Positions 2,067-64,000 of a stretch of 64,000 nucleotides of DNA are shown here, in pieces. Each line of letters opens with the position of its first letter. Within the stretch, counting starts at the first letter, position 1. This DNA comes from Tragulus kanchil (lineage: Eukaryota > Chordata > Mammalia > Artiodactyla > Tragulidae), in assembly GCA_022376925.1 (NCBI GenBank), contig JAIOJX010000005.1:155883501-155947500 (forward strand). Direction: 5' to 3'. The notes beneath the pieces are model-generated. The model was given only the letters and a program-made list of their open reading frames with translations. It was not told where the DNA came from and did no database searches. The position numbers were made by a program, and so were the translations under genes.

Positions 2067-4230
2067 GCATTTTTGAAGAGTTGAGAAAGTTGCCATTATC
2101 TGCTTGATACATAAGGATCCTGTGCTTATGCAAGCTGACGTTGGTCTTTTTGAAACCTCTGTGCTGAAGAGCACACCTTGTTAAGAAAGAAACCCCTGTT
2201 GGTTGGCACACCTAATCTACAAGCAAGTTGATTTGCCACTATTGTCTTCCAGATCCATTACTTGCTATTTATGATTAATGGCTCACATATTAAGATGCCT
2301 GTAAATAACCCCATGCCCTCCACATTAACCCATGTCAGCTGAAAGATATGGCAGCACAATGGTTTATTCTTGAAATAAATCAGCTGTTAATAGTCTGGGT
2401 TCGCTTAGGAAGCTGGAGTCAAGAAGTTCAATAGAGAGAATTTGGTATGAGCAACAAGCTACAAAGGTATTAAAAGCTAGAAGCCAAATGGGAAATAGTG
2501 ATGAAATCCAGACTAATAGCAAGAAGCCACTTCTAGCCTTAGGGCTGAAGGGGAAGAAGCAGTGTCATGACTCCAGTGGTAAAGATTGCAGAGGCCACTG
2601 GAGACACAACAGTGGATGCTCAGAGGACACTGGGAGAGGGTCAGACACTAAATGTTGGAGACTCAGAAGTGGGAAGGGGAAACATACCCCAGTGTCTCCT
2701 GTCTACCTGCCTTTCAATCTCCCAATTCCCACTGGCCAAATACAAGTAAAAGCCAGATGACAAGAGAGCCTAGGAAAAAGGGTTTTCTCTCAGGACTCTG
2801 AAATGTTCCTCCCTTACTATGGTCTGTTGTGCTAACGTTTGTCTTTGGTCTATAACATCCTAGCCATCTAGACCTGGGATGTGCTCCGCAGTGTTTGCCA
2901 GATGGGCATCCTCTACCTTCTGGTTCCCTTGATTCCCTCATTAGTGAATAGTGTACTTTACACATGTTCAATATCAAGTTACCTAAGGTTTTATCATGGT
3001 ACCTGGATGGGGCTTCCCAGATGGCTTCGTGAAAAGAGTTTGCCTGGTGGTGCAGGAAACACAAGAGACGCAGGTTCAATCCTTGGGTTGAGAAGCTCCC
3101 CTGGAGGAGGGAGCACCCATGATTTTTTGGGGGGCCCGGTGGGCTTCAGCATTTTCGAAGAGTTGAGAAAGTTGCCATTATCTGCTTGATACATAAGGAT
3201 CCTGTGCTTATGCAAGCTGACGTTGGTCTTTTTGAAACCTCTGTGCTGAAGAGCACACCTTGTTAAGAAAGAAACCCCTGTTGGTTGGCACACCTAATCT
3301 ACAAGCAAGTTGATTTGCCACTATTGTCTTCCAGATCCATTACTTGCTATTTATGATTAATGGCTCACATATTAAGATGCCTGTAAATAACCCCATGCCC
3401 TCCACATTAACCCATGTCAGCTGAAAGATATGGCAGCACAATGGTTTATTCTTGAAATAAATCAGCTGTTAATAGTCTGGGTTCGCTTAGGAAGCTGGAG
3501 TCAAGAAGTTCAATAGAGAGAATTTGGTATGAGCAACAAGCTACAAAGGTATTAAAAGCTAGAAGCCAAATGGGAAATAGTGATGAAATCCAGACTAATA
3601 GCAAGAAGCCACTTCTAGCCTTAGGGCTGAAGGGGAAGAAGCAGTGTCATGACTCCAGTGGTAAAGATTGCAGAGGCCACTGGAGACACAACAGTGGATG
3701 CTCAGAGGACACTGGGAGAGGGTCAGACACTAAATGTTGGAGACTCAGAAGTGGGAAGGGGAAACATACCCCAGTGTCTCCTGTCTACCTGCCTTTCAAT
3801 CTCCCAATTCCCACTGGCCAAATACAAGTAAAAGCCAGATGACAAGAGAGCCTAGGAAAAAGGGTTTTCTCTCAGGACTCTGAAATGTTCCTCCCTTACT
3901 ATGGTCTGTTGTGCTAACGTTTGTCTTTGGTCTATAACATCCTAGCCATCTAGACCTGGGATGTGCTCCGCAGTGTTTGCCAGATGGGCATCCTCTACCT
4001 TCTGGTTCCCTTGATTCCCTCATTAGTGAATAGTGTACTTAACACATGTTCAATATCAAGTTACCTAAGGTTTTATCATGGTACCTGGATGGGGCTTCCC
4101 AGATGGCTTCGTGAAAAGAGTTTGCCTGGTGGTGCAGGAAACACAAGAGACGCAGGTTCAATCCTTGGGTTGAGAAGCTCCCCTGGAGGAGGAGATGGCA
4201 CCCACTCCAGTATTCTTGCCTGGAAAATCC
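2067..4230. repeat. Tandem duplication A, period 1082
   Basis: Copy 1 is 2067-3148 and copy 2 starts at 3149. Position 2068 matches 3150 and 2488 matches 3570. The copies are almost identical (2070s T/C; about 2955/4037 T/A). The last 40 bases of copy 1, inside a Bov-tA, are corrupted: GATTTTTTGGGGGG stands where copy 2 has about 85 bases of normal SINE. This looks like an unreconciled overlap between two assembled pieces. Confidence 0.93.
3009..3148 (+). mobile_element. Bov-tA SINE, truncated and corrupted (copy 1 of duplication A)
   Basis: Starts with GGGGCTTCCCAGATGG and carries the tRNA-like head (GGTTCAATCC). The second half is replaced by noise and then by the next copy. The intact counterpart is at 4091-4297. 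Confidence 0.85.
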
Positions 4231-4297
4231 CATGGGCAGAGGAGCCTGGTGGGCTTCAGTTCATAGGGCTGCAGAGTTGGACACGACTGAACTGAGC
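4091..4297 (+). mobile_element. Bov-tA SINE
   Basis: Nearly full-length: GGGGCTTCCCAGATGG head, GGTTCAATCC B-box-like segment, TATTCTTGCCTGGAAAATCC body and GACACGACTGAACTGAGC tail. Bov-tA is a tRNA-headed SINE with a BovB-derived tail, found only in ruminants. Confidence 0.93.
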
Positions 4298-4424
4298 ATG
4301 CATGCACTGTGGATAAAGTTGGTACTGAGAAACAGGGAGCTATATTTAAAACAAGATAGATCAGCCCAGAGCCTTATGGGACTTCCTTTATGTTACTTGT
4401 TACTTTTCCCTTGCAGCTTTTAAT

Positions 4425-4750
4425 ATTTTCTGACTTTATAGTTATAATGTCTTGGTGTATTTCTCTTTGGTTTAATTATCTGTGGGTCTCCATGCTTCCT
4501 GAACTTGGCTGAGGCTTTCTTAGAGCTACACTGACTTCTTTCCTTTCCCAGGTTAGGGAAGTTTTCAGCTATTATATCTTCAAATATGTTCTTAGCCCCT
4601 TTCTCCTCTTTCTGGGATTCCTATAATGTAAACACTAGTGTACTTGATGTTTTGAGTTTCCTTAAACTGTCCTAATTTTTTTTTCAGTGTCAGTGACTTC
4701 TACTACTCTGCCTCCTGCTCACTGACATGGTCCTCTGTATCATTTAGTCT
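4425..4750 (-). mobile_element. Old L1-type LINE fragment (repeated at 5558-5883)
   Basis: Phrases such as TTTTCAGCTATTATATCTTC and TTTCTGGGATTCCTATAAT match a widespread old mammalian LINE segment. The family assignment is tentative and the strand is inferred. Confidence 0.5.
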
Positions 4751-5557
4751 GTTTCTTCTGGTGTAAACAACCAGGGTAATGTAACTGAGAATTCTGGATT
4801 CCTCTACTCAACTTATGTTCATAGATCCAGTAACATGAAATCATGACCTAACCAGTTTCAACTCTGTGGGAAGGCTGAGTAATTCAGCTGACTTGAAACC
4901 ACACCTGTAGGTAACCTAGGACATTGGCATAAATATCCTCCAAAGAGTAGTTCTAGCAACCACTAGAGGAATAAGATGAAATACAAATTTAATTTTGCTA
5001 AGAGTTTGCACGGCTCCTACCCAAATGGGGCTGAGACTGAGTACTGAAAACACCCCTGCCCCTGCCTCCACCTCCAGCCTGAGATTTCTTGCTAAGACAG
5101 TAAATCAGAAGTGGCTTCTGCCTCCCTCCTCAGCCATCAACCCTGGAGAAACTATATAGAAGCAAACATATGGAATAACTACTGTAAGAGGCTCCTGGGC
5201 AGACTGAAACGGAAGTGGGACTTGACATTATATAGGGTGTTATAGATGAGAGGACTGAGTCAATTCTGATTGACAGAAAGATACCCAGAAGTCAGTTCAG
5301 CTCTAAGAAAGCCTCCAGTGGTGTCTTGGAGAGCTCTGGCTGCCCCTAGGAGAGTCCTAAGTCTGGCCCTTGTTCCCCGCCAAACTCAGTCATTGGTTGG
5401 GAACTCCCTGAGTGAAGAGCTGTCCTTGATTCTGATGCTGCAGCTGATTCCAAAGAAGCTACAGCTCTGTAGGCCGTTAGCTAACTGTACTCGTCAAGGC
5501 TGACTATCCCTCAAAAGGAGATCTGAGACTTGTTACTTTTCCCTTGCAGCTTTTAAT

Positions 5558-5883
5558 ATTTTCTGACTTTATAGTTATAATGTCTTGGTGTATTTCTCTT
5601 TGGTTTAATTATCTGTGGGTCTCCATGCTTCCTGAACTTGGCTGAGGCTTTCTTAGAGCTACACTGACTTCTTTCCTTTCCCAGGTTAGGGAAGTTTTCA
5701 GCTATTATATCTTCAAATATGTTCTTAGCCCCTTTCTCCTCTTTCTGGGATTCCTATAATGTAAACACTAGTGCACTTGATGTTTTGAGTTTCCTTAAAC
5801 TGTCCTAATTTTTTTTTCAGTGTCAGTGACTTCTACTACTCTGCCTCCTGCTCACTGACATGGTCCTCTGTATCATTTAGTCT
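5558..5883 (-). mobile_element. Old L1-type LINE fragment, duplicate copy
   Basis: Same sequence as 4425-4750, shifted by 1133 bases in duplication B. Confidence 0.5.
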
Positions 5884-7183
5884 GTTTCTTCTGGTGTAAA
5901 CAACCAGGGTAATGTAACTGAGAATTCTGGATTCCTCTACTCAACTTATGTTCATAGATCCAGTAACATGAAATCATGACCTAACCAGTTTCAACTCTGT
6001 GGGAAGGCTGAGTAATTCAGCTGACTTGAAACCACACCTGTAGGTAACCTAGGACATTGGCATAAATATCCTCCAAAGAGTAGTTCTAGCAACCACTAGA
6101 GGAATAAGATGAAATACAAATTTAATTTTGCTAAGAGTTTGCACGGCTCCTACCCAAATGGGGCTGAGACTGAGTACTGAAAACACCCCTGCCCCTGCCT
6201 CCACCTCCAGCCTGAGATTTCTTGCTAAGACAGTAAATCAGAAGTGGCTTCTGCCTCCCTCCTCAGCCATCAACCCTGGAGAAACTATATAGAAGCAAAC
6301 ATATGGAATAACTACTGTAAGAGGCTCCTGGGCAGACTGAAACGGAAGTGGGACTTGACATTATATAGGGTGTTATAGATGAGAGGACTGAGTCAATTCT
6401 GATTGACAGAAAGATACCCAGAAGTCAGTTCAGCTCTAAGAAAGCCTCCAGTGGTGTCTTGGAGAGCTCTGGCTGCCCCTAGGAGAGTCCTAAGTCTGGC
6501 CCTTGTTCCCCGCCAAACTCAGTCATTGGTTGGGAACTCCCTGAGTGAAGAGCTGTCCTTGATTCTGATGCTGCAGCTGATTCCAAAGAAGCTACAGCTC
6601 TGTAGGCCGTTAGCTAACTGTACTCGTCAAGGCTGACTATCCCTCAAAAGGAGATCTGAGAGAGGCGTCTCCATGGTTGCCACGATGTCCGTATAATTGT
6701 CCAAACAGAATGCTTCAAAGTAAAAAGGATTACACTAAGGCAGCAGGCATATTAGAGACCAGACATAAACTAGAACTGCCTGGGTAAGTTCATTCATCCA
6801 GTCCCTATGGGTTTAGTGCCTGTGATCTGAGACAAAGGGCAGTTGGCAGAGCTGAGTGTTAGAGTGATTTCAGTTCTGCGTTTGCCTCTTCACATGACTG
6901 CTTTGAGATCATCATTGATTGTTGCCTGGCAGAAATCAGTGGTTTAAAAAGGGTTAATGCAGACATTCCCTTTTTAGAATCAGGTAAGCAGGAGCCCCAT
7001 CGGATAAGGGGTCAATGAAAGCAGGGGGCAGCTGGTCAATTTCATACATGCAGTGCTTCATCCTATCCCCATTGTGGGGTTGATGGATTCCAGTCCAGGG
7101 AGGCTGCTTCCTCCCAGTGCTGCTTCTCCCAGGGAGGGAAACTCTGACCTGTTTTTATCCTGGGAACCACAGGATGTCCTTAC

Positions 7184-7391
7184 AGGTTTCCCAGGTGGCT
7201 CAGTGGTAAGAATCTGTCTGCCAATGCAGAAGACATGGGTTCAATCCCTAGGTTGGGAAGATCCCCTAGAGGAGGAAATGGCAAGCCACTCTAGTATTTT
7301 TGCCTGGAAAATCCCATGGACACAGGAGCCTCGTGGGCTACAGCCCAGGGATCACAAGGTCTGACATGACTGAGCACACGACAGCACACAC
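7184..7391 (+). mobile_element. Bov-tA SINE
   Basis: CAGGTTTCCCAGGTGGCTC head, GGTTCAATCC, GCCTGGAAAATCCCATGG body and a degenerate TGACATGACTGAGCAC tail. Full length, plus orientation. Confidence 0.93.
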
Positions 7392-8316
7392 TTAAGCACA
7401 GAATGTCCTTGACCCTTTTTTCCCATCAGGGAATTTACCAAGGCTGAAACAAATGAGAATCTTGCCTTTGATCTCTACCTAATATGACATTACCAGATAA
7501 ATCATGTTCCTCAGAGGGAGCTGGATATCTTTGCAGGCCAAATCAAGATACTAGAGGAGTACAATGACTTAAAAAGGAACACAGAACATTATGTGCCATT
7601 GGAAGCAAAAAGAACACTTAGAATGAGAATGTAAATGTATAACAGATATACTTAAGATATTTCCATTTAAAAACCCTGAGTGAAGAGCTGTCCTTGATTC
7701 TGATGCTGCAGCTGATTCCAAAGAAGCTACAGCTCTGTAGGCCGTTAGCTAACTGTACTCGTCAAGGCTGACTATCCCTCAAAAGGAGATCTGAGAGAGG
7801 CGTCTCCATGGTTGCCACGATGTCCGTATAATTGTCCAAACAGAATGCTTCAAAGTAAAAAGGATTACACTAAGGCAGCAGGCATATTAGAGACCAGACA
7901 TAAACTAGAACTGCCTGGGTAAGTTCATTCATCCAGTCCCTATGGGTTTAGTGCCTGTGATCTGAGACAAAGGGCAGTTGGCAGAGCTGAGTGTTAGAGT
8001 GATTTCAGTTCTGCGTTTGCCTCTTCACATGACTGCTTTGAGATCATCATTGATTGTTGCCTGGCAGAAATCAGTGGTTTAAAAAGGGTTAATGCAGACA
8101 TTCCCTTTTTAGAATCAGGTAAGCAGGAGCCCCATCGGATAAGGGGTCAATGAAAGCAGGGGGCAGCTGGTCAATTTCATACATGCAGTGCTTCATCCTA
8201 TCCCCATTGTGGGGTTGATGGATTCCAGTCCAGGGAGGCTGCTTCCTCCCAGTGCTGCTTCTCCCAGGAGGAAACTCTGACCTGTTTTTATCCTGGGAAC
8301 CACAGGATGTCCTTAC

Positions 8317-8524
8317 AGGTTTCCCAGGTGGCTCAGTGGTAAGAATCTGTCTGCCAATGCAGAAGACATGGGTTCAATCCCTAGGTTGGGAAGATCCCCT
8401 AGAGGAGGAAATGGCAAGCCACTCTAGTATTTTTGCCTGGAAAATCCCATGGACACAGGAGCCTCGTGGGCTACAGCCCAGGGATCACAAGGTCTGACAT
8501 GACTGAGCACACGACAGCACACAC
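8317..8524 (+). mobile_element. Bov-tA SINE, duplicate copy
   Basis: Same element as 7184-7391, repeated by duplication C at offset 1133. Confidence 0.93.
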
Positions 8525-8808
8525 TTAAGCACAGAATGTCCTTGACCCTTTTTTCCCATCAGGGAATTTACCAAGGCTGAAACAAATGAGAATCTTGCCT
8601 TTGATCTCTACCTAATATGACATTACCAGATAAATCATGTTCCTCAGAGGGAGCTGGATATCTTTGCAGGCCAAATCAAGATACTAGAGGAGTACAATGA
8701 CTTAAAAAGGAACACAGAACATTATGTGCCATTGGAAGCAGAAATAGTAGAACACTTAGAATGAGAATGTAAATGTATAACAGATATACTTAAGATATTT
8801 CCATTTAA

Positions 8809-9110
8809 AAAATAGGAACATTTTTAAAATGTAAGATGAAAAGTGTGAGTTTATCAGATGTAATAGGATTGGGAGACTAGATACAGCTAAAGAACAAGCT
8901 CATGAGTTGGAAGATCAACTTGAGGAAGTCTTCCAGAAGGAAAGTAAGAAAGATAAATAGAAAATACAAGGAGATAATGGAGGATAGAAAAACTGTAAAC
9001 ATGTTGACAATCTCAAAATAAATGTGTAAATAATTTCCAATGATCAATAAGCTCATTTTGAAAATGCTGATAGAATAAAACAAAACCTCACAACTAGATA
9101 GGGTAACAGA
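8809..9110. other. AT-rich single-copy stretch, nothing recognised
   Basis: A-rich on the plus strand. The minus-strand reading at 8877-9125 is hydrophobic simply because poly-A-rich DNA reads as Phe/Leu/Ile; I do not regard it as a gene. Confidence 0.5.
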
Positions 9111-11378
9111 AATATTAAAAGTCAACTATGACAGTTTTCAGAGAATCTACAGAATGAGAACTAGAAGCTCATAGGACTCAAATATTTGATAAAGTACAAA
9201 ATGGGAGTCAAAGTCCATTTTATAGAAGACTTTTTAAATGCACACATGGAGATGGTATAATGAACTATGTGCCTATTATTCAACTTCAGCAACTCAACAT
9301 TGTTTTAGTCTGATTTTATTTATCCCCCTAGGTGATTTTCTTTATTGGACTTCACTGGAATTCTTTCAAAGCAAACACTAGGCATATCCTTTACTCACAA
9401 ATACTGATAAAGGTCTCTCCTTGTGATCACTCTAAGACTGAACAAAATCAACAGTCCTTTTAATATCTTAACAGTTGAGCATCACTGCTTGCCTCAAATC
9501 TCCTGCAGCTGGCTTACTCAGACTGGGCTCCCAACCAGTCCACTAATGCATTTGGTTCATTTGCCTTAACCCAAATCCAAATACCCACAAAAGAGAACCA
9601 AGGCCAGCATTCATTGCTAATGCTTAAGAGATGCAGCTGAAGTAGCAACAATGAGAGGAAAAGGAAGGTAAGAAAGGGAAGAGTGAGTAAGAGATACACA
9701 TAAACTCATGGATGGAGGCTAAGCTGGCCACTGTTTCACAAAGATCACAGCTGATTTCTGGGTCTCATATGAGTCATAGGCAGACAGTATGGCAAAGGGG
9801 TGAAAAAATTAATCTGTGAGTTAATTCTCTTAGCAATAATTGGTCAGAATTTCTCCTAAGGAATAAACTCTCCCCCTCTTCCAAATGGTTAGCTAGTCTG
9901 TTTGGCAGCTGGAGGGAAATCTAAGTTTCATCCATACAATATGACACTTCCTGTGAACTCAGAAGGAGCCAGAAGCTCCAGGTATGAAGCAGCCCTAAGG
10001 TACAGGTCAGCATGGTGTTGATCAGTGTCTGACTGAGGGAGTAGGAGACAGGTGATTGTAAAAGGATCTAAGGGCTTGCATATGATGTCTCCTAAGCATT
10101 TAGACTGCTTAAATTTCTTCCTCATCTCCAGTGCCATTTAGATATTGGAGAAACTAGGTCAATTATCCTGTAGAATGCCCTGTATTCTCAACTTGGCTAA
10201 TTGGTTTTTCAGTGCTTTAGTGGTTGTTTCTTACTGTGGAGTAAACTAGGATCCAAAATATTAAAAGTCAACTATGACAGTTTTCAGAGAATCTACAGAA
10301 TGAGAACTAGAAGCTCATAGGACTCAAATATTTGATAAAGTACAAAATGGGAGTCAAAGTCCATTTTATAGAAGACTTTTTAAATGCACACATGGAGATG
10401 GTATAATGAACTATGTGCCTATTATTCAACTTCAGCAACTCAACATTGTTTTAGTCTGATTTTATTTATCCCCCTAGGTGATTTTCTTTATTGGACTTCA
10501 CTGGAATTCTTTCAAAGCAAACACTAGGCATATCCTTTACTCACAAATACTGATAAAGGTCTCTCCTTGTGATCACTCTAAGACTGAACAAAATCAACAG
10601 TCCTTTTAATATCTTAACAGTTGAGCATCACTGCTTGCCTCAAATCTCCTGCAGCTGGCTTACTCAGACTGGGCTCCCAACCAGTCCACTAATGCATTTG
10701 GTTCATTTGCCTTAACCCAAATCCAAATACCCACAAAAGAGAACCAAGGCCAGCATTCATTGCTAATGCTTAAGAGATGCAGCTGAAGTAGCAACAATGA
10801 GAGGAAAAGGAAGGTAAGAAAGGGAAGAGTGAGTAAGAGATACACATAAACTCATGGATGGAGGCTAAGCTGGCCACTGTTTCACAAAGATCACAGCTGA
10901 TTTCTGGGTCTCATATGAGTCATAGGCAGACAGTATGGCAAAGGGGTGAAAAAATTAATCTGTGAGTTAATTCTCTTAGCAATAATTGGTCAGAATTTCT
11001 CCTAAGGAATAAACTCTCCCCCTCTTCCAAATGGTTAGCTAGTCTGTTTGGCAGCTGGAGGGAAATCTAAGTTTCATCCATACAATATGACACTTCCTGT
11101 GAACTCAGAAGGAGCCAGAAGCTCCAGGTATGAAGCAGCCCTAAGGTACAGGTCAGCATGGTGTTGATCAGTGTCTGACTGAGGGAGTAGGAGACAGGTG
11201 ATTGTAAAAGGATCTAAGGGCTTGCATATGATGTCTCCTAAGCATTTAGACTGCTTAAATTTCTTCCTCATCTCCAGTGCCATTTAGATATTGGAGAAAC
11301 TAGGTCAATTATCCTGTAGAATGCCCTGTATTCTCAACTTGGCTAATTGGTTTTTCAGTGCTTTAGTGGTTGTTTCTT
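9111..11378. repeat. Tandem duplication D, period 1146
   Basis: Copy 1 is 9111-10232 and copy 2 is 10257-11378. Both start AATATTAAAAGTCAACTATG and run to AGTGGTTGTTTCTT. Copy 1 is followed by 24 unmatched bases (10233-10256) before copy 2 begins. The last 135 bases recur a third time in duplication E. Confidence 0.95.
9215..9460. mobile_element. Possible old L1-type LINE fragment (repeated at 10361-10606)
   Basis: TATAATGAACTATGTGCCTA, CAGCAACTCAACATTG and a segment like 'caaagcaaacactaggcat' follow a common diverged L1 3' pattern. The family call is from memory and tentative. Confidence 0.4.
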
Positions 11379-11689
11379 CTGTACCTGCAAATCCACAGTT
11401 GACACCATAGGTTTTATTAGACACTCTTTGGCAAGAAGACTCCATAGGTGACCTGTACTTCCTGTACTCTCACACTCAGATGTGCAATGTCTGTTCCATC
11501 TATAGTGGTGCTCAGTTTAGTGAATGGATGAGCTAACATCATCTGAACTCATTGTTAGTTTCTCATCAAGCTTTCATCTAAGGATCTTAGCCCATGTGGT
11601 TGGTCGACAATGCAAAATCCAAATCAAGTCCTCCATCCCATATCTATACCCTTCAAAAAGGGGACTTTGCCACTATTCCAATTAAGTTT

Positions 11690-11990
11690 GTTTCCTGGCC
11701 CTTGAAATCTGAGTTGACCTTGTGACTTGATTTTAGAAGACAGAATATGACAGAAATTGCCCATCCAAGCCTGGATTTCCATGGGCCTTGCATGTTCATC
11801 CCTCATTCACTGCCACTATCATGAGGATGAGACTGGGCCAGGAGGAGCATGCTGGCGACAAGACCAAGTGGGCAAAAGTCCTGCTGTCCCAGCTGAGACC
11901 ATTCTAGACCAGCCTTAAGTGAGCTGACCTCCCAACATGAGCTCAGCCTTGATCAGCAGAACTGCCCCCTGATCCAGGGCTGGTTGCATA
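11690..11990 (+). mobile_element. MLT1-like (ERVL-MaLR) LTR fragment (repeated at about 12825-13122)
   Basis: The order of blocks resembles a mammalian MaLR LTR: TTGACCTTGTGACTTG, AGACAGAATATGACAGAAAT, CCCAGCTGAGACCATTCTAG and CCTTGATCAGCAGAACTGCC. The call rests on remembered family pattern. The LTR is old and partial, and no internal retroviral sequence is seen beside it. Confidence 0.5.
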
Positions 11991-12824
11991 GAAAGGAAGC
12001 AAAGGGGAAAATGACTTACTGCAAAGGGATTTTGCTGGGGTCCCCTTCAAGATTCTGTCATCCGACTTAAGTAGATTCAACCATTCTGCCCAAGACACCT
12101 GGTCACCGCCTGTTGTTGGAGGGTGAGATAGGGCTAAGAGTGTATGGAGGTGACAACTACCTCAATCAAATGTATCTTGAGGCCTAAAGTAACAAAAGTA
12201 TAAGCTAGGGGACCAGAGCTCTTCAAAATAACTCCCAGTGCTGAAACTAGTCTCCCTGGTCATGTTTGCTAGGAAGGGACACCAGTCCTAATGACCAGTG
12301 AAGAATAAGACTAGAATCTGGGCCAAGATGCTGGAACTGGTGGTTTCAAAATATATTTCCTTAGCCTCCAGCAAAATGATTTAGACTGCTTAAATTTCTT
12401 CCTCATCTCCAGTGCCATTTAGATATTGGAGAAACTAGGTCAATTATCCTGTAGAATGCCCTGTATTCTCAACTTGGCTAATTGGTTTTTCAGTGCTTTA
12501 GTGGTTGTTTCTTCTGTACCTGCAAATCCACAGTTGACACCATAGGTTTTATTAGACACTCTTTGGCAAGAAGACTCCATAGGTGACCTGTACTTCCTGT
12601 ACTCTCACACTCAGATGTGCAATGTCTGTTCCATCTATAGTGGTGCTCAGTTTAGTGAATGGATGAGCTAACATCATCTGAACTCATTGTTAGTTTCTCA
12701 TCAAGCTTTCATCTAAGGATCTTAGCCCATGTGGTTGGTCGACAATGCAAAATCCAAATCAAGTCCTCCATCCCATATCTATACCCTTCAAAAGGTGACT
12801 TTGCCACTATTCCAATTAAGTTTG

Positions 12825-13122
12825 TTTCCTGGCCCTTGAAATCTGAGTTGACCTTGTGACTTGATTTTAGAAGACAGAATATGACAGAAATTGCCCATCC
12901 AAGCCTGGATTTCCATGGGCCTTGCATGTTCATCCCTCATTCACTGCCACTATCATGAGGATGAGACTGGGCCAGGAGGAGCATGCTGGCGACAAGACCA
13001 AGTGGGCAAAAGTCCTGCTGTCCCAGCTGAGACCATTCTAGACCAGCCTTAAGTGAGCTGACCTCCCAACATGAGCTCAGCCTTGATCAGCAGAACTGCC
13101 CCCTGATCCAGGGCTGGTTGCA
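12825..13122 (+). mobile_element. MLT1-like LTR fragment, duplicate copy
   Basis: Same sequence as 11690-11990, repeated by duplication E with a two-base indel. Confidence 0.5.
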
Positions 13123-13513
13123 TAGAAAGGAAGCAAAGGGGAAAATGACTTACTGCAAAGGGATTTTGCTGGGGTCCCCTTCAAGATTCTGTCATCCGAC
13201 TTAAGTAGATTCAACCATTCTGCCCAAGACACCTGGTCACCGCCTGTTGTTGGAGGGTGAGATAGGGCTAAGAGTGTATGGAGGTGACAACTACCTCAAT
13301 CAAATGTATCTTGAGGCCTAAAGTAACAAAAGTATAAGCTAGGGGACCAGAGCTCTTCAAAATAACTCCCAGTGCTGAAACTAGTCTCCCTGGTCATGTT
13401 TGCTAGGAAGGGACACCAGTCCTAATGACCAGTGAAGAATAAGACTAGAATCTGGGCCAAGATGCTGGAGAAAGCATACTGGTGGTTTCAAAATATATTT
13501 CCTTAGCCTCCAG

Positions 13514-13926
13514 CAAAATGATGTCTCTTGGAGTTTCAGATGCTATCAATAAAAAAAACAATTCTTAATGGAAAAACTGGTTTGAGCCACACAGACACAA
13601 TTCTTACACTGAAAGAATGTAGTAGACAGCATTTTGCCACTTTGCTAGAATTCCAAGATTGTGGGAGAAGGATGGCAGACAAAGAATCTGATTTCAAACC
13701 ATGGTATTTAACAGTACATCCCACGAAGTTTCCACTGGAGCTTCTAGTGCATGTGTAGATGCTGCAGCTGGTCTCCTACCAGCCCTTTCAATTCCTGTGG
13801 TGTCATGATGCTCTTGCATTGTAATTAGAAAATGGTCTGAAGGTCCCAAAGCATAATGGTTTCATCTAACGTGGTGCCTTTAAATTCATCCATATCATGT
13901 GCTTATTTGCCCATATAGAACCTTGA
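13514..13926. other. Single-copy stretch, no gene recognised
   Basis: A 76-codon plus reading (13528-13758) exists here. It has no familiar motif, no conserved start context and no neighbouring exon, so I treat it as chance. Confidence 0.45.
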
Positions 13927-14035: not shown

Positions 14036-14246
14036 GGGGCCTTCCTGATGGCTCAGTGGTGAAGAATCTGCCTGTAATGCAGGCAACCCAGGTTCTGTCC
14101 CTGGGTTGGGAAGCTCCCCTGAAGGAGAGCGTGGCAACCCACTCTAGTATACTTGCCTGGAAAACTCCATGAGCCTGGTGGGCTTCAGTCAATGGGATCA
14201 CACAGAGTCTGACATGACTGAAGTGACTGAGCAACAGCAGGGCCCT
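14036..14246 (+). mobile_element. Bov-tA SINE
   Basis: Full-length: GGGCCTTCCTGATGGCTCAG head through CCCTGGGTTGGGAAGC to GTCTGACATGACTGAAG. Its last about 50 bases are also the first bases of the second copy in duplication F. Confidence 0.93.
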
Positions 14247-14784
14247 CATAAGTCAGTCCCGCTGCAGGACTGCCCTGTGGTTGGCAGGGCCCCTAACTGC
14301 TAGCCAGACTTTGTCCAAGGAAGTTTCCTTTTGATGTTGAGATATGGATAGTATTTCAAAATGCAGTGCCCTTGTTTGGCTTCATGATCTTATAAGAACA
14401 CCCCATCCACACTGAAATCTTAGGCCAAGCTTCTAATGGTGTTAAATAGATGAGGATTCCTTGAAACCTAGATGATGTGGTCTTGTCCAATTTCTTGAAG
14501 GCTACTGAAGCAGTGGGCTTCTGTACTGGAATAAGTGGCAGCTCAAATACAGGCCTAGGTTACTAGAACCCTGCTTGGTAGTTGTGAGGAATCTTGATCT
14601 CTCCATAGGAGTAAGGAGAATTCCTTGAAAGATGAGGATCATAGTCTGGAATCTTGTTACGTCTTGGTGCATATGCTGTAAGCCTGGTAGAATCCGCAAG
14701 AGAAGCTCATTGGGTCATTTCATTTTTTCTTTTTTTCTCCAAAGGAAGTTTTTAGACCAGCAAGTAACATGCTTTATTGGAATA

Positions 14785-14885
14785 AGTGAAGGTTCTGAAA
14801 TTGGATCCATGTCTATCTCCCATCTTAGTGTCTTACTATGTGACCTTTAAGTTTCTAAATCCCTGAGCCTCTTTATCTCCAGCAG
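14785..14885 (-). mobile_element. MIR SINE fragment (repeated at 15892-15992)
   Basis: CTTACTATGTGACCTTTAAG followed by CTGAGCCTCTTTATCTCC matches the reverse complement of the MIR core region. The copy is very diverged. Confidence 0.55.
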
Positions 14886-15891: not shown

Positions 15892-15992
15892 AGTGAAGGT
15901 TCTGAAATTGGATCCATGTCTATCTCCCATCTTAGTGTCTTACTATGTGACCTTTAAGTTTCTAAATCCCTGAGCCTCTTTATCTCCAGCAG
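15892..15992 (-). mobile_element. MIR SINE fragment, duplicate copy
   Basis: Same as 14785-14885, repeated by duplication F. Confidence 0.55.
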
Positions 15993-17202: not shown

Positions 17203-17452
17203 AGTTTCTAGATTGGCACTGGACTTAGGGGCAGAAATGTGTATCACTTTTCCCACAATGGGATCAGAACCCAGTCATGCTCCTACTTTACTGTGAGAAG
17301 GCAGGAAACATAGTTGTCGGTGCTATGTTCTCCCAAATCATATTTGTTCTTCCCTCATGGACACAAAGAAGGCCATGAAAGGCTGATATTCTAACTAGGT
17401 ATATAAAAACCAATAGATGAATGCCATCAGGTACAATGGCAGAGTAATAATG

Positions 17453-42967: not shown

Positions 42968-42976
42968 TTCTCTTTT

Positions 42977-51366: not shown

Positions 51367-52021
51367 TAACAGGAATTCCAGAAACAGTAATTGGTAAAAC
51401 AGGTTAAGACTAAGGACTGCTCAAGATTTACCTCTCTGGGCACATCTAGACTGTACAAGTGAAGTCTGAGAAAAGTCTAGAACAGGTAGTAGGGGAGGAA
51501 CACAACATCAGCAGTGACCCACTGCATGTTGGAGTCTCCCAAAGCAAAAGCTGAGTGTAATTGGGGGTGTAAGATGATTCTTAGGGATTGACATTGGGAA
51601 GATGAGGTCAGACTGGGAAACAGGAGAGAAGGCTCCAGCCAACCGAATGGGCATGCTCAAACCAGAGTTCCTCATCAGTGTCCCACTTTGGACAGAAGCA
51701 ACCATGAGCTAACTGCTCTTCAGTCCATAATAGTTCTTCCCCAGAGAGAACTTTACCTTGAGCAGGGACATTCTGACTTGTCTAGACATTGAAGAAGGTG
51801 ATGAACTTGCAGGTTCCAGTTGCTGGTTTAGTGACAAACAACTCTGTCTGCGTGTGCCAGCTGGTTGAGCAGAGAGAGGATAAGGTGTGGGGAAGAATGA
51901 GGACAACATAAACCATGGCAGCAGCCTTGGCACTGTCTGTGTATATTCCCATGGCCCCTTGCCTACTTAATTTATGAGGCCTGATCTCTCCTGAACTGCC
52001 TAGCTTGTCCAGCTATGCTGT

Positions 52022-52219
52022 CCTTAGTTGCTCAGTCATGTCTGATTCTTTATGACCCCATGGACTACAGCCCACCAAGCTCCTCTGTCCATGGGAATTC
52101 TCAAGAATACCAGAATGGGTGGCCATGCCTTCCTCCAGGGGATCTTCTCAACCAGGAGTCAAACACAGATCTCCCACACTGAGGGTGATTCTTTACTGTC
52201 TGAGCCACCAGGGAAGCCC
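52022..52219 (-). mobile_element. Bov-tA SINE
   Basis: Antisense: CTTAGTTGCTCAGTCATGTC, CCCATGGACTACAGCCCACC, CTCCTCTGTCCATGGGAATT and TGAGCCACCAGGGAAGCC. Confidence 0.93.
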
Positions 52220-53124
52220 TGCTATAGCTACATTTATTTCCTTTGCTCTGATCTCAAACCAGATCCTTGCTAGTATTGTTCCCTGTTGAGTATAAACTAC
52301 TTCAGCTACTGCCTCTACTTAAAGTCTGGGTGATCTCACTTGTGTCTCCAGTTCATCCCATTTTTTGGCATGGCCTGTGGTCTCCAATAATTAATCATCA
52401 TCTCGTAGGAGCATCTCTCTTCCGTTTCCAACCTGGGTCCACTGCAGTGCCAGTGCAGGATGGGGGGTTTGGGGGTTTTTTGAATTTTTAGGATGCCAGG
52501 AAAAAGGAAACTAGCTAGACTGCTCAAGATTTACCTCTCTGGGCACATCTAGACTGTACAAGTGAAGTCTGAGAAAAGTCTAGAACAGGTAGTAGGGGAG
52601 GAACACAACATCAGCAGTGACCCACTGCATGTTGGAGTCTCCCAAAGCAAAAGCTGAGTGTAATTGGGGGTGTAAGATGATTCTTAGGGATTGACATTGG
52701 GAAGATGAGGTCAGACTGGGAAACAGGAGAGAAGGCTCCAGCCAACCGAATGGGCATGCTCAAACCAGAGTTCCTCATCAGTGTCCCACTTTGGACAGAA
52801 GCAACCATGAGCTAACTGCTCTTCAGTCCATAATAGTTCTTCCCCAGAGAGAACTTTACCTTGAGCAGGGACATTCTGACTTGTCTAGACATTGAAGAAG
52901 GTGATGAACTTGCAGGTTCCAGTTGCTGGTTTAGTGACAAACAACTCTGTCTGCGTGTGCCAGCTGGTTGAGCAGAGAGAGGATAAGGTGTGGGGAAGAA
53001 TGAGGACAACATAAACCATGGCAGCAGCCTTGGCACTGTCTGTGTATATTCCCATGGCCCCTTGCCTACTTAATTTATGAGGCCTGATCTCTCCTGAACT
53101 GCCTAGCTTGTCCAGCTATGCTGT

Positions 53125-53322
53125 CCTTAGTTGCTCAGTCATGTCTGATTCTTTATGACCCCATGGACTACAGCCCACCAAGCTCCTCTGTCCATGGGAA
53201 TTCTCAAGAATACCAGAATGGGTGGCCATGCCTTCCTCCAGGGGATCTTCTCAACCAGGAGTCAAACACAGATCTCCCACACTGAGGGTGATTCTTTACT
53301 GTCTGAGCCACCAGGGAAGCCC
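53125..53322 (-). mobile_element. Bov-tA SINE, duplicate copy
   Basis: Same as 52022-52219, shifted by 1103. Confidence 0.93.
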
Positions 53323-55495
53323 TGCTATAGCTACATTTATTTCCTTTGCTCTGATCTCAAACCAGATCCTTGCTAGTATTGTTCCCTGTTGAGTATAAAC
53401 TACTTCAGCTACTGCCTCTACTTAAAGTCTGGGTGATCTCACTTGTGTCTCCAGTTCATCCCATTTTTTGGCATGGCCTGTGGTCTCCAATAATTAATCA
53501 TCATCTCGTAGGAGCATCTCTCTTCCGTTTCCAACCTGGGTCCACTGCAGTGCCCAGTGTTGACAGGATGCCTGGGCTCGACTTCATTGGGCAATTCTGA
53601 TCAGTGCAGGTGTGGGGTTCTTAAATAGGTGGTCTGGATGGCTTGACTATTGGGCCAGAGAAACCATGTGGTGTCTGTCCTCCAGGATGCCCTAGAGGTT
53701 ACTCCTTTCTCTAGATCTGAAGGAGAACAGTAGTGAATATAGGTCATCCTATTCCTATTCTAGCATGGGTACACTTCTAACCCCCCTTGTTAGCAGAGTT
53801 GCAAGGGCTGCTACATTAGGCCATCCTGCTCACTGGGGGAAACCGAGCTGGTAGGTGGCCTGGATGGCATTTTAATAGTAGGAATGAGAGTGTCCCTCCT
53901 CATTCAAGGAACACAAAAGACTGAGCAGCTATCAACTCAGGCACCCTGATGTCCGGCTGAAATAAGCACTGAAAACGAATCACACGCACAGTCAACAACA
54001 TGGATAAATCTTACAGTGAAGGATTTACCTGAGTCTTGTACCACAGAAGATGATCAGTGTATTCTCAGTCAAAAAGATGAGACATTTGGTGCCTTCTGAT
54101 CCAAGTTTGCAGCATGGCATTTCTGGATTCAGATGTGGTGCACCACTCTTAACTCATTCACTTGGCCGGAGTCCAGTGCCTCTAATGCTGGGTAGAACTT
54201 TTCTGTAGTCTGGGGAGAGAAATTGCTGCTGCCTTAGCCACTGCCTCAGTGTGGCAGTGGTCTGCGAGGGCTGTAGGAGGGCATCAGGTTGCTCATAGCC
54301 TTGCCTTACAGTGCCTTCCTCTGAGAACGTAAGACCACTGGAGACTCTCTTGACAGATGTCGGGGGTGGAGGTAAAAGGGTTTTCCAGGTCAACCAGATC
54401 TCCCACACAGGGTGATTCTTTACTGTCTGAGCCACCAGGGAAGCCCTGCTATAGCTACATTTATTTCCTTTGCTCTGATCTCAAACCAGATCCTTGCTAG
54501 TATTGTTCCCTGTTGAGTATAAACTACTTCAGCTACTGCCTCTACTTAAAGTCTGGGTGATCTCACTTGTGTCTCCAGTTCATCCCATTTTTTGGCATGG
54601 CCTGTGGTCTCCAATAATTAATCATCATCTCGTAGGAGCATCTCTCTTCCGTTTCCAACCTGGGTCCACTGCAGTGCCCAGTGTTGACAGGATGCCTGGG
54701 CTCGACTTCATTGGGCAATTCTGATCAGTGCAGGTGTGGGGTTCTTAAATAGGTGGTCTGGATGGCTTGACTATTGGGCCAGAGAAACCATGTGGTGTCT
54801 GTCCTCCAGGATGCCCTAGAGGTTACTCCTTTCTCTAGATCTGAAGGAGAACAGTAGTGAATATAGGTCATCCTATTCCTATTCTAGCATGGGTACACTT
54901 CTAACCCCCCTTGTTAGCAGAGTTGCAAGGGCTGCTACATTAGGCCATCCTGCTCACTGGGGGAAACCGAGCTGGTAGGTGGCCTGGATGGTATTTTAAT
55001 AGTAGGAATGAGAGTGTCCCTCCTCATTCAAGGAACACAAAAGACTGAGCAGCTATCAACTCAGGCACCCTGATGTCCGGCTGAAATAAGCACTGAAAAC
55101 GAATCACACGCACAGTCAACAACATGGATAAATCTTACAGTGAAGGATTTACCTGAGTCTTGTACCACAGAAGATGATCAGTGTATTCTCAGTCAAAAAG
55201 ATGAGACATTTGGTGCCTTCTGATCCAAGTTTGCAGCATGGCATTTCTGGATTCAGATGTGGTGCACCACTCTTAACTCATTCACTTGGCCGGAGTCCAG
55301 TGCCTCTAATGCTGGGTAGAACTTTTCTGTAGTCTGGGGAGAGAAATTGCTGCTGCCTTAGCCACTGCCTCAGTGTGGCAGTGGTCTGCGAGGGCTGTAG
55401 GAGGGCATCAGGTTGCTCATAGCCTTGCCTTACAGTGCCTTCCTCTGAGAACGTAAGACCACTGGAGACTCTCAAAATGTGCATCAGATGTCGTG
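53265..55495. repeat. Tandem duplication U, period 1124-1127
   Basis: Copy 1 is about 53265-54372 and copy 2 starts at about 54394 inside the Bov-tA (AGATCTCCCACACAGGGTGA; compare CACACTGAGGGTGA). The end of copy 1 is damaged (GACTCTCTTGACAGATGTCG against GACTCTCAAAATGTGCATCA). Part of the unit is triplicated with duplication T. The rest of the unit has no recognised gene. Confidence 0.93.
54394..54446 (-). mobile_element. Bov-tA head fragment, created by duplication U
   Basis: Third appearance of the tRNA-head end of the SINE at 52022-52219. Confidence 0.85.
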
Positions 55496-56727
55496 GTGGA
55501 GGTAGTCTATTGTCCCCAGGGCAGCTCTGGCAGAGGGAGGAAGGAGCTGGTGGACAAACCATTCCTTCTCTGTTTTGGGGATTCTAGGGGGAATAAATAC
55601 CTTGTCCTCTCAAAAGACTTCCAGAGAAATCAGCTTGTCAGAGAACTATGGCCTACTCATGTCCCCTTGGCATGTTTGCCATCCCTCTTTCCCCTTTCCC
55701 ACTTTTCTTGGTATTTTACCTTATTACAATACAGTGTCTGAACCTGTGGCAAAAATATTTGCTGTGCCCCAGAACAGGTGACTTGAAACAGTTCCCTATT
55801 CACTGTTCTTGCTAAAACACAGGCTTGAATCCAGTGTCTAGCTCTAACTTTCTACTTATAAAAGATAGGGACAGAGAACATGACCAATGACACTATGAGG
55901 GAATAAATCTGTGATCCTAGGTCATCTACCTTGTAAATGCTTCCAGTTTCAAGGAACTATTAAGAGAAACTGAATAGGTTTGAATTTGGATCCTAGTAGA
56001 AAATAGAGACTTCAAAGGTAGTGGTAAAATTCCATTTCTTGGTGAATGGTTTATGCATATAAATGTTTACTGAATTACCCCTTAAGCTATATCATAAATA
56101 TTCATAAAACTAAATGATTAGAGAAGGTCAAATATGGGGTGAACAAAATCAGATGAGACAGCAATTGGGTTTTTAGATACAGGGATTCTAACTAAGGTTT
56201 CTGTGGTTGGGGAGATATAGGCACAGCATTTAGAATTGTGACCTGTTAGAGGAGTGAGAAAATGGAGATCTCAAGAATGACTTGAGATCCTCAGGAGTGA
56301 TCAGCTCAAAATGATGGTAACTCTTACTAAAATAAGGGGCAAGGTAAGAAAGGTCATTCGGGTAGACATGGACGCTGGCAATTAGACATGCTGGACAGAA
56401 GCCATGTGAAGGAGATCTGTGGATGTGGAAGTTCAGGTGGTTGGTGATGGAGCCTATCCCAAGTCTTTGTTTCTGATTCTGTTTTACAGGGACCCAAGTC
56501 AAGACTGAAGCATAGGTAGTTTATTGGGAACATAGCAAGAGTGAGATAGAGAGGCTAAGCAAGGAGGGCTCACTGTCCAGTGCACGTAGAAACCAATACC
56601 ATGGCACTAGCTTCTGAGAAAAGAAAGCATTATTGCAAGGTCAATGCTCAGACCTGTCTCCTGGAGTCAGGGTTGGGGGAAAAATGTAAAGGTTTAAGGA
56701 AATTTCAAACTTGGGTAATGATAGGCT
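55496..56727. other. Single-copy stretch, no gene or repeat recognised
   Basis: Readings of 68-90 codons are present on both strands without motifs. No splice-flanked exon or known element could be named. Confidence 0.4.
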
Positions 56728-58807
56728 GGTCTCAAATCAGTCCATATATGTTAACAAAACTGCTTGGACTACTGGAAGCTCATTTTTCTTAATGAAGAAC
56801 ATACTGCTTTGTAAATGACTCTAGTGGCAATATTGTTATGACTTGGATACCATAGACATTTGATTCTTGGTTCCAGGGTCTTGTAGGAGATGTGGGTTCC
56901 CATCTTGTACATACACAGTGCTGTTCCTATGAAATCACTCAATGTATGATTAATCAACAATCTGCTACAGGAACCAAAACTAGTTTAAGCTGGTCAGTAT
57001 CTTACATGCTGTCTTGGTAGTAGGGAAATGAGAGACAATGAAAGGATTTATTGAGCTGAGCTTCAATTCAGGTGACTGATTGCTCCAGCCCATGAAGTTT
57101 CAGGAAACGTTTCAGAAGAAACAGGGAGGCATTTACTTAGAAGACTTCATTGTCCCTTTCAATCAAGTTTTGCTGAGTGTAACTTCATAGTTTCCTGGAC
57201 TACATGTACCAGCACTGAGCACATTCCCTCAGGCATCTGTGTGGCATGAAGCTACATAGATGAATCTATGAAGCACCAGGTCAGTGTGCCAGGTGAGTGA
57301 GGTGATGTTGAACTGCTCTCGAGCTGGTTCCTGTAGCAGTGTCTTAAAGATGAGATCAAAGAGCTTGAAGTGCAGAAATATCTTCAGTCCACTCCAAGGA
57401 TGTATATAGAAATACATACACCTGAGCACCTGGGGAGCACCGCTTTTAAGGAACAGGTGGAATGAACTGCCTCGAGAAAAGCTTTAAGAATTAATAGTAA
57501 AAGAGAGAAGAAAATTTGTCACAAAACCTAGGGGAGACACACTTGCAGGAAGAGAAAGTAAAAAATGGTGTCAAATCAAAGTAGATACAACTGATAAATT
57601 TGGGAAATCATTAGCTAAAATCTAACTCCTGGAATGAAAATTAAAAGATCAAGGCCACAATATACCAACCAGTAAATGGATTGTGATGTGGGTAGACAAG
57701 TTATATTGGTATGTCTGTGTATTTATGTCATGTATACACAGCTGTATTAATGTAGGATGTATATTTTGGTCTCAAATCAGTCCATATATGTTAACAAAAC
57801 TGCTTGGACTACTGGAAGCTCATTTTTCTTAATGAAGAACATACTGCTTTGTAAATGACTCTAGTGGCAATATTGTTATGACTTGGATACCATAGACATT
57901 TGATTCTTGGTTCCAGGGTCTTGTAGGAGATGTGGGTTCCCATCTTGTACATACACAGTGCTGTTCCTATGAAATCACTCAATGTATGATTAATCAACAA
58001 TCTGCTACAGGAACCAAAACTAGTTTAAGCTGGTCAGTATCTTACATGCTGTCTTGGTAGTAGGGAAATGAGAGACAATGAAAGGATTTATTGAGCTGAG
58101 CTTCAATTCAGGTGACTGATTGCTCCAGCCCATGAAGTTTCAGGAAACGTTTCAGAAGAAACAGGGAGGCATTTACTTAGAAGACTTCATTGTCCCTTTC
58201 AATCAAGTTTTGCTGAGTGTAACTTCATAGTTTCCTGGACTACATGTACCAGCACTGAGCACATTCCCTCAGGCATCTGTGTGGCATGAAGCTACATAGA
58301 TGAATCTATGAAGCACCAGGTCAGTGTGCCAGGTGAGTGAGGTGATGTTGAACTGCTCTCGAGCTGGTTCCTGTAGCAGTGTCTTAAAGATGAGATCAAA
58401 GAGCTTGAAGTGCAGAAATATCTTCAGTCCACTCCAAGGATGTATATAGAAATACATACACCTGAGCACCTGGGGAGCACCGCTTTTAAGGAACAGGTGG
58501 AATGAACTGCCTCGAGAAAAGCTTTAAGAATTAATAGTAAAAGAGAGAAGAAAATTTGTCACAAAACCTAGGGGAGACACACTTGCAGGAAGAGAAAGTA
58601 AAAAATGGTGTCAAATCAAAGTAGATACAACTGATAAATTTGGGAAATCATTAGCTAAAATCTAACTCCTGGAATGAAAATTAAAAGATCAAGGCCACAA
58701 TATACCAACCAGTAAATGGATTGTGATGTGGGTAGACAAGTTATATTGGTATGTCTGTGTATTTATGTCATGTATACACAGCTGTATTAATGTAGGATGT
58801 ATATTTT
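56728..58807. repeat. Tandem duplication V, period 1040
   Basis: Copy 1 is 56728-57767 and copy 2 is 57768-58807. Both begin GGTCTCAAATCAGTCCATAT. I saw no internal difference. The cleanest pair in the window. No named repeat or gene inside the unit. Confidence 0.95.
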
Positions 58808-60486: not shown

Positions 60487-60490
60487 TAGC

Positions 60491-62674
60491 AGTCTAAATC
60501 ACACACTGCCTCATGATGAGGATTAGTTTAGTTACAATAATATGCCCCAACACACTTAGGACAACACCTTGAGTGAAGGCAGAGCCATGCCTGATGGGGC
60601 CCTGATCTGCACCTCTAGACTGGAGTGCCCTCTCTGTTCAAGTCTCTTGTGCCTCAGGTGCCCCTGCACCAATGACCCAGGACTGTTCTGTGTGTCGTGC
60701 CCCTTGTCAGAATTCACCAACATTTATGTGAGTCTCATTGGTGTAGATTCAGGGTACATTCACCTCATTCTGGGATCTGCTGATACAATGTGTAAGCACT
60801 TGAAGAAGCTGGTCTGTGAGGAAAACCATGATAATTAGCAATGAATTGGAAGATTTTTAAAAATACATCAGGGAAATAGGAGTATTAAGCTATGGGAAAG
60901 AAACCACCGGAAGAGAAGTTGAAGGTGCAAGAGAACGGATAGATAATCAATAGAGTATATCAGAAAAAGGTAAAACCAGGGATTTAGGAAACATGGAAGG
61001 ATTAACCTACCCAAAAGAGGCTACCTCCTGCTAAGATCCTAAGTGATGTTCTGGATAAGGATAAGGAGGTAAAGAAGTTGAGAAGTTGGGAGTGAGGACT
61101 TGCATTGAGAGAAAAGAGCAATAAAGTTTACTCTTTGCGAAAGAAACCAGCTTGCCATAGCTGCCATTTATAATGAGAGTTAATGAAGGATACCAGTCAG
61201 TTTCTTTATAACAGGATAGTTATCTTGTCCTTATGTAAGAACTAACTGGTTTATGAGAGCTAAAGCTGCAGTTGGAGTAGCCCAGGGGTCCTGCAACTGA
61301 CAGACACTGCAGAGTAAGGCTCTGGGCTCCGTACAAATAAGTGCCCTAAATGCCCAAATACAGGATCACAAATACAAGGCACTTCCACCTTCCAGCAAGA
61401 CGCGTAGAAATTACACACGGAAATTACATTCTTAGTGCCGAAACTGCCAAATGTCTACCAATTGGAGTAGATATACCCTTCAAATCAGACATTCTTTTCA
61501 ATACTGCTTTTTCTAGTCATATAACAACTCATTCTTCATATGTAGCTCTTAACGCTGTGTCATCCAGAGCAACACACCAAGTCAGTCTAAATCACACACT
61601 GCCTCATGGGATTAGTTTAGTTACAATAATACGCCCCAACACACTTAGGACAACACCTTGAGTGAAGGCAGAGCCATGCCTGATGGGGCCCTGATCTGCA
61701 CCTCTAGACTGGAGTGCCCTCTCTGTTCAAGTCTCTTGTGCCTCAGGTGCCCCTGCACCAATGACCCAGGACTGTTCTGTGTGTCGTGCCCCTTGTCAGA
61801 ATTCACCAACATTTATGTGAGTCTCATTGGTGTAGATTCAGGGTACATTCACCTCATTCTGGGATCTGCTGATACAATGTGTAAGCACTTGAAGAAGCTG
61901 GTCTGTGAGGAAAACCATGATAATTAGCAATGAATTGGAAGATTTTTAAAAATACATCAGGGAAATAGGAGTATTAAGCTATGGGAAAGAAACCACCGGA
62001 AGAGAAGTTGAAGGTGCAAGAGAACGGATAGATAATCAATAGAGTATATCAGAAAAAGGTAAAACCAGGGATTTAGGAAACATGGAAGGATTAACCTACC
62101 CAAAAGAGGCTACCTCCTGCTAAGATCCTAAGTGATGTTCTGGATAAGGATAAGGAGGTAAAGAAGTTGAGAAGTTGGGAGTGAGGACTTGCATTGAGAG
62201 AAAAGAGCAATAAAGTTTACTCTTTGCGAAAGAAACCAGCTTGCCATAGCTGCCATTTATAATGAGAGTTAATGAAGGATACCAGTCAGTTTCTTTATAA
62301 CAGGATAGTTATCTTGTCCTTATGTAAGAACTAACTGGTTTATGAGAGCTAAAGCTGCAGTTGGAGTAGCCCAGGGGTCCTGCAACTGACAGACACTGCA
62401 GAGTAAGGCTCTGGGCTCCGTACAAATAAGTGCCCTAAATGCCCAAATACAGGATCACAAATACAAGGCACTTCCACCTTCCAGCAAGAAGACGCGTAGA
62501 AATTACACACGGAAATTACATTCTTAGTGCCGAAACTGCCAAATGTCTACCAATTGGAGTAGATATACCCTTCAAATCAGACATTCTTTTCAATACTGCT
62601 TTTTCTAGTCATATAACAACTCATTCTTCATATGTAGCTCTTAACGCTGTGTCATCCAGAGCAACACACCAAGT
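60491..62674. repeat. Tandem duplication W, period 1089-1093
   Basis: Copy 1 is 60491-61585 and copy 2 starts at 61584 with AGTCTAAATCACACACTGCC. The start of copy 2 has lost four bases (CATGGGATTAG against CATGATGAGGATTAG) and has ATACGCCCC for ATATGCCCC. The end of copy 1 has lost three bases (GCAAGACGCG against GCAAGAAGACGCG). Confidence 0.95.
60588..60839 (+). other. 83-codon cysteine-rich ATG reading frame, unrecognised
   Basis: From ATG at 60588 the frame encodes an 83-residue peptide with CPLC, CLRCPC and CVSC. A second identical copy lies at 61677-61928 in duplication W. No zinc-finger spacing I know, no signal peptide and no promoter or poly-A signal identified. Most likely chance. 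Confidence 0.15.
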
Positions 62675-64000
62675 CAGCTAAGTTTTCCAGAATTCATGAG
62701 TTTAATCATATAATGGGCGATATTTGAATCAGACACAACTACAGGAAGCTTGATCCCAAAGCATGGGGATTCCCATAATGTACCACCAGTCTTTTATCAA
62801 TGATCAGATATTTGTTTCTCCTGCTGTTTACCTTACTCTTCTTTTTAAATTGACTCCTCAGAGGCTTCATAGTGGCACCTAAGGTTTGGCTGAGAACTCA
62901 GGACATATACCCGGGGGTAGTTAGCAAGCTGGTATCACTGTGTGTGCTCATGTGTGTGTCTGCATGGTCACTACTTTTGCCAATTTGGGCACAGGACCTC
63001 TAGCCATCCTGAACCAGCATGGATTGAGGTCTTTTCTGGTTAATGCATCCTCCTCGCATGGCACTTTGTATTTAAAATAAAACTACAACTGCACCAAAAC
63101 GAGTCATCATAGGCCGTTATTGTAAACTCAGGTCATTTTAGAGTCACATAATTTGACTCTATCTCTCCTGAGGATTGGAAAATTCTGATATCCAGGCAGC
63201 ATACTGCGTGATACTGGGCTAGCTTCTAGGAAATAGTCATTAGTGATATGGCCAAATGATGAATGTATGAATGTTCACTGCCACCTCCTTCCCCTCCCTC
63301 ATCTCTGCCACGCCTCCAGCTCCTGGGCCTCATTCAGATACAAGTCATCAGGAAAACATGAGAACCAGGGAAGTTGTGTTTGTAATAGTGACTTTACTGC
63401 CAGTGGAGAAATTATCACAGAAGTTTAAAAGAAAAATATGGGGATGAGTGGGAGTGAGTGTTTGGAGGCTAAACAGAGTTTAGGGAGGATTTTAGGGGGG
63501 GATGAGTTTTTTGGATGACAGAGTAAGGCTCTGGGCTCCGTACAAATAAGTGCCCTAAATGCCCAAATACAGGATCACAAATACAAGGCACTTCCACCTT
63601 CCAGCAAGAAGACGCGTAGAAATTACACACGGAAATTACATTCTTAGTGCCGAAACTGCCAAATGTCTACCAATTGGAGTAGATATACCCTTCAAATCAG
63701 ACATTCTTTTCAATACTGCTTTTTCTAGTCATATAACAACTCATTCTTCATATGTAGCTCTTAACGCTGTGTCATCCAGAGCAACACACCAAGTCAGCTA
63801 AGTTTTCCAGAATTCATGAGTTTAATCATATAATGGGCGATATTTGAATCAGACACAACTACAGGAAGCTTGATCCCAAAGCATGGGGATTCCCATAATG
63901 TACCACCAGTCTTTTATCAATGATCAGATATTTGTTTCTCCTGCTGTTTACCTTACTCTTCTTTTTAAATTGACTCCTCAGAGGCTTCATAGTGGCACCT
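62401..64000. repeat. Tandem duplication X, period 1120, runs off right edge
   Basis: Copy 1 starts at about 62401 and copy 2 at about 63517 (GAGTAAGGCTCTGGGCTCCG at 63521). Base 62880 matches 64000, so copy 2 continues past the window. Copy 1 ends in G/T-rich noise (63490-63515: TTTTAGGGGGGGATGAG, TTTTTTGGATG). Bases 61312-61585, 62401-62674 and 63521-63794 are a triplicate. Confidence 0.94.

Follow-up and report, generated by a model that had tools for sequence, protein, structure and literature searches.

The 64-kb stretch of Tragulus kanchil DNA that was analysed here, referred to as the window, raises the question whether a long run of adjacent direct duplications of about 1.1 kb is present in the animal or was made when the sequence was assembled. 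The original prediction, made from the letters of the sequence, had described 24 consecutive duplications with a near-constant period from position 2067 onwards and had proposed a self-comparison of the window as a check. This self-comparison, performed with BLAST, confirmed the run of adjacent direct duplications. In total, 32 matches above 95% identity and 50 bp were identified, 32 of 32 in direct and none in inverted orientation, and these consist of 23 duplications with offsets of 1040-1213 bp, eight secondary matches and one 54-bp continuation at a junction. According to self-BLAST and the pairing of exact 30-mers, the series begins at 2060 rather than at the predicted position and runs to the end of the window, with 22 complete pairs and one pair truncated at 64000. 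The paired copies are 97.5-100% identical in self-BLAST. The offsets of all 25,245 exact 30-mer pairs are in the bins 500-2399, with 23,012 pairs in the bins 1000-1299, an excess that is far above chance. Of the 24 duplications predicted, 23 were thus recovered by self-BLAST, with predicted offsets that agree within 7 bp with the self-BLAST or 30-mer values, and the remaining item, with an offset of 511, corresponds to a different, older tandem repeat with a period of 514 bp.

The junctions are lettered a to w from left to right, and positions and offsets are given in bp. At nine of the 22 complete junctions fewer than ten bases were left between the copies, and these junctions are uninformative on the nature of any filler. 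In six of the nine, as located by self-BLAST, the copies abut directly or have 1-8 bases in common: b (4395-5528 and 5528-6661, offset 1133), c (6539-7673 and 7674-8811, offset 1135), e (11244-12380 and 12379-13522, offset 1135), h (19281-20415 and 20412-21546, offset 1131, 100% identical), u (56727-57767 and 57767-58807, offset 1040, 100% identical) and v (60490-61590 and 61583-62681, offset 1093). At the other three, also from self-BLAST, 3-5 bases separate the copies: f (14196-15297 and 15303-16404, offset 1107), g (17203-18412 and 18416-19627, offset 1213) and p (43179-44335 and 44340-45497, offset 1161).

The 13 junctions with at least 11 leftover bases form the testable set. Self-BLAST located ten of these at a (2060-3119 and 3142-4204, 22 bases between, offset 1082), d (9110-10237 and 10256-11382, 18 bases, offset 1146), j (25257-26410 and 26422-27567, 11 bases, offset 1165), k (27489-28661 and 28684-29855, 22 bases, offset 1195), m (32895-34000 and 34015-35121, 14 bases, offset 1120), n (39188-40251 and 40266-41331, 14 bases, offset 1078), o (41460-42461 and 42546-43547, 84 bases, offset 1086), q (46110-47185 and 47213-48283, 27 bases, offset 1103), s (51415-52455 and 52518-53559, 62 homopolymer-smeared bases, offset 1103) and t (53261-54374 and 54389-55504, 14 bases, offset 1128). 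The other three are i (22645-23673 and 23741-24783, 67 bases, offset 1096), l (31020-32147 and 32210-33333, 62 bases, offset 1190) and r (48513-49552 and 49616-50654, 63 bases, offset 1103). In the truncated pair w, copy 1 starts at 62399 and copy 2 at 63519, is cut at 64000 and has an offset of 1120 in self-BLAST; this pair was excluded from all statistics except the offset mean. The stretch 63474-63518, just 5' of this last junction, is homopolymer-smeared with runs of G and T and resembles the leftovers at a and s. As predicted, no motif common to the breakpoints could be seen, a comparison that was made by eye only.

The dimensions of the series are tight in one respect and loose in another. 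The offset amounted to 1124.5 ± 41.0 bp (range 1040-1213, n = 23), and its coefficient of variation of 0.036 bears out the near-constant period; the shared block measured 1103 ± 53 bp (range 1002-1210) in the 22 complete pairs. In contrast, the distance from block to block varied between 633 and 5173 bp with a coefficient of variation of 0.61. The 21 pieces bounded by two full junctions were 1790-6237 bp long with a median of 2564 bp, so that the predicted spacing of 1.5-4 kb was too low at its upper end. In 7 of these 21 pieces, which are shorter than their summed overlaps, the blocks shared with the left and the right neighbour run into each other for 79-439 bp. Because of these seven pieces, together with the last, cut piece, eight secondary self-BLAST matches with offsets of 2209-2352 bp link a piece to the next but one. 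The sum of the 23 offsets corresponds to about 26 kb of redundant sequence in the 64 kb, and about 38 kb remains after its subtraction. Overlap length drops with rising length of the leftover (Spearman -0.53, p = 0.01), which suggests that the whole unit is a fixed quantity.

The differences between the copies were analyzed by position and type. Indels account for 54 of the 82 differences in 22 pairs. Pair i, which contributes 18 of the 82 events, was omitted from the statistics on differences because it touches the 514-bp repeat and is rich in substitutions. Of the 64 differences in the remaining 21 pairs, 46 fall in the outermost 100 bp of a block, a zone comprising 18% of the length, and the density is 10.95 per kb at the block ends versus 0.95 per kb inside, where it has to be considered that the block ends were placed by BLAST and that this placement affects the number of end differences seen. 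The copy that faces the junction is copy 2 at the start of a block and copy 1 at its end. Among the indels in the end zones, 29 of 37 are bases lost from this junction-side copy and 8 of 37 are the opposite (p = 0.0004 by event, an optimistic value like all event-wise p-values here, since differences within one junction are non-independent). The direction test was tried at three limits, resulting in 24 of 32 at 60 bp, 29 of 37 at 100 bp and 30 of 38 at 150 bp. Counted by junction, 12 agreed with this direction, 4 opposed it and 5 were neutral (p = 0.04). With their concentration at the ends, the predominance of indels and the junction-side losses, the differences between the copies look like sequencing or consensus error.

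The bases left between the copies were compared with the sequence on either side of the duplications. At i, l and r (3 of the 13 testable junctions), the leftover aligns to the sequence that follows copy 2 better than to the flanks of all 21 other junctions, with alignment scores of 99, 39 and 95, respectively, versus maxima of 20, 24 and 27 for the other flanks. At i the leftover matches the continuation after copy 2, at l it is a deletion-rich version of this continuation, the alignment being a string of scattered small deletions, and at r it is the continuation minus a stretch. At the remaining 10 of the 13 junctions, the leftover has no outstanding local match in the flank after copy 2, and at none of the 13 does it have one in the flank before copy 1. 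In an anchored extension test of the 13 junctions against permuted flanks, the tails gave p = 5e-5 and the heads p = 0.002-0.003; the tail result is due mostly to i, l and r, and its scoring was picked after the junctions had been inspected. When i, l and r were left out, the ten other junctions gave p = 0.04 for tails and p = 0.01 for heads. Together, the matches at i, l and r and the anchored test indicate that the ends of the pieces often carry a poorly read form of the true continuation, which would be the expected look of the thinly covered ends of consensus pieces.

It is concluded that the duplication series is an assembly artefact, which is held to be near certain (probability of about 0.97). 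The proposal in the original prediction that pieces were laid end to end with uncollapsed overlaps of about 1.1 kb is supported by the end-loaded differences, the junction-side losses and the degraded continuation at i, l and r. The sequence would have been built by concatenating about 24 consensus pieces, each computed on its own, with neighbouring pieces both containing one block of about 1.1 kb that would have been left uncollapsed at each join. A near-constant block common to neighbours points to an assembly graph with fixed-size vertices, and the artefact is probably of this kind, as in the wtdbg family, a family that we infer together with the read type and the failed merge step. Beyond the original prediction, a fixed-size vertex is thus added as the likely cause of the period and deletion-rich long reads as the likely type of read. 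Assemblers of this family divide the reads into segments of 1024 bp, which serve as the vertices; the consensus of an edge spans one vertex through the next, and the consensus program has to merge neighbours over the shared vertex. After a failed merge, two copies of the vertex would be output, and the pieces would end in ragged bases with thin support. In deletion-rich, nanopore-like reads, 1024 raw bases would represent about 1.1 kb of true sequence. The mean block is 1.077 x 1024 bp, which would be compatible with one vertex if the reads drop several per cent of their bases. In the wtdbg consensus program, adjacent layout units are expected to overlap by the length of a vertex, and wtdbg works on a 256-bp grid. 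When the spacing of the vertices (n = 21) was compared with this grid, no significant periodicity was seen, with Rayleigh p = 0.33 at 256 bp and, for two scaled units, p = 0.11 and p = 0.06. A systematic fault would be needed for 23 successive merges to fail.

What is described of these programs resembles the window in two respects, namely a fixed unit near 1 kb and edge sequences from which the consensus is made (PMC10989838; PMC8434745). According to these papers, wtdbg2 splits reads into segments of 1024 bp and merges similar segments to a vertex (PMC10989838), and it outputs the contig layout with the edge sequences, from which wtpoa-cns then makes the consensus (PMC8434745). A correct run of wtdbg or wtdbg2 merges the shared vertex, whereas in the window the vertex is doubled, presumably after a merge that failed. 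Two further papers describe yak genomes that were built with wtdbg2 on nanopore reads (PMC9448747) and a sika deer genome for which wtdbg 1.2.8 was run on PacBio reads (PMC10372904); they demonstrate no more than the existence of such ruminant assemblies. A published description of this artefact or of its exact signature was not found in a literature search, which is weak evidence.

Two other origins during assembly would also leave duplicated blocks. Another assembler, or a contig-merging step, might have yielded contigs or unitigs that share a terminal read or overlap by at least about 1 kb, and these might have been concatenated unmerged. The smallest block of 1002 bp is what a 1-kb minimum would give, the differences are located at piece ends as this explanation would have it, and a block just as constant would result from a common terminal read about 1.1 kb long. 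However, the lengths of the overlaps follow a bell-shaped distribution (Shapiro p = 0.68), to which a decay starting at a 1-kb threshold is a poor fit (calibrated p = 0.014; plain Kolmogorov-Smirnov p = 0.08), and a minimum-overlap cut-off alone was set aside on this distribution. Furthermore, the deletion-rich tail at l appears to favour noisy long reads over Sanger-length reads, and shared Sanger-length reads were set aside because it fits the former better. An overlap artefact of this other kind is regarded as doubtful. Gap filling, in which fills were inserted together with about 1 kb of each contig flank while the flanks were kept, would create two duplications per gap. Several pieces barely exceed two joined flanks, with overlapping flanks in 7 of 21, which could be understood in this way, and the eight secondary matches show outer pieces that overlap each other. 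Yet a strict alternation of contig and fill predicts that short pieces occur at one parity, whereas four were found at even and three at odd positions, and on this mixed parity the strict gap-filling model was set aside. The errors are also found at both block ends and, as far as could be judged by eye, not in every second piece. Gap filling is considered unlikely, ranking below the concatenation of contigs.

The remaining explanation is that unrelated 1.1-kb segments were duplicated in tandem in the animal, recently and 23 times in succession. The copies are adjacent and nearly identical, as in fresh tandem duplications, and the 6 of 22 junctions that are blunt or have 1-8 common bases could be read as microhomology. 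In real duplications, however, differences should be spread along the copies instead of being concentrated at their ends, a loss of bases from the junction-side copy is unexpected, and filler should be absent or unrelated to the far flank, whereas i, l and r have filler that is the continuation after copy 2 in degraded form. Tandem duplicator phenotypes in tumours resemble the window in that many tandem duplications of a characteristic size arise in unrelated sequence; in contrast to the window, these are scattered over the genome and do not follow each other every 2-3 kb, and their junctions are not known to have tails of read errors. We know of no process that gives a fixed span of 1.1 kb with irregular spacing in unrelated sequence, and a duplication process that is so far unknown would be required if the duplications were true. 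Real biology is judged extremely improbable. A slightly fainter chance still is given to a specific version, in which the copies exist in the animal through a process that duplicates successive unrelated 1.1-kb blocks in tandem with irregular spacing and the ragged junctions stem from error-prone repair synthesis that miscopied the continuation.

As an assembly artefact, the window is an extreme and regular case that is nearest to the homotype false duplications of vertebrate assemblies (PMC9516828). There, as in the window, under-collapsed adjacent copies are driven by read errors and are absent from the animal in duplicate; the window differs in the near-constant length of the copies, their serial order and the lack of an N gap. 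A gap between the copies is, in PMC9516828, a usual mark of a false duplication but not essential, and in the window, which has 0 N, no run of N lies between copies. Taken at face value, such a series inflates genome size, doubles exons or regulatory elements and mimics recent tandem duplications. Long-read drafts could easily be screened for its signature, which consists of adjacent near-constant blocks of about 1.1 kb with differences at their ends and losses on the junction side.

Other features of the window were also examined. Scanning with Rfam gave 0 matches at the gathering score, and a search of a plasmid collection with 35200-39100 only gave no match. Tandem Repeats Finder, whose longest period was 500, reported three short rows. 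The observed/expected ratio of CpG in the window is 0.13, as is usual in mammals. A 16-base motif of ruminant tRNA-derived SINEs has five exact matches (at 4220, 7304, 8437, 16482 and 39106) and ten with at most three mismatches, the copies made by the artefact included. These matches support a ruminant origin, in agreement with the ruminant comparison named in the original prediction.

The tandem repeat with a period of 514 bp extends from 21646 to 22925 with about 2.5 units that are 94% identical and have 36 mismatches. On this identity and these mismatches, the predicted offset of 511 was rejected as a member of the series, and the repeat is probably a different, older and genuine one outside the 1.1-kb series. 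A stretch near 37062-37315 is related to it at 77-78%. In pair i, a cluster of mostly transition-type substitutions between the copies was observed at 22758-22811, unlike in the other pairs, and it may have arisen because different units of the 514-bp repeat, or two haplotypes, were mixed.
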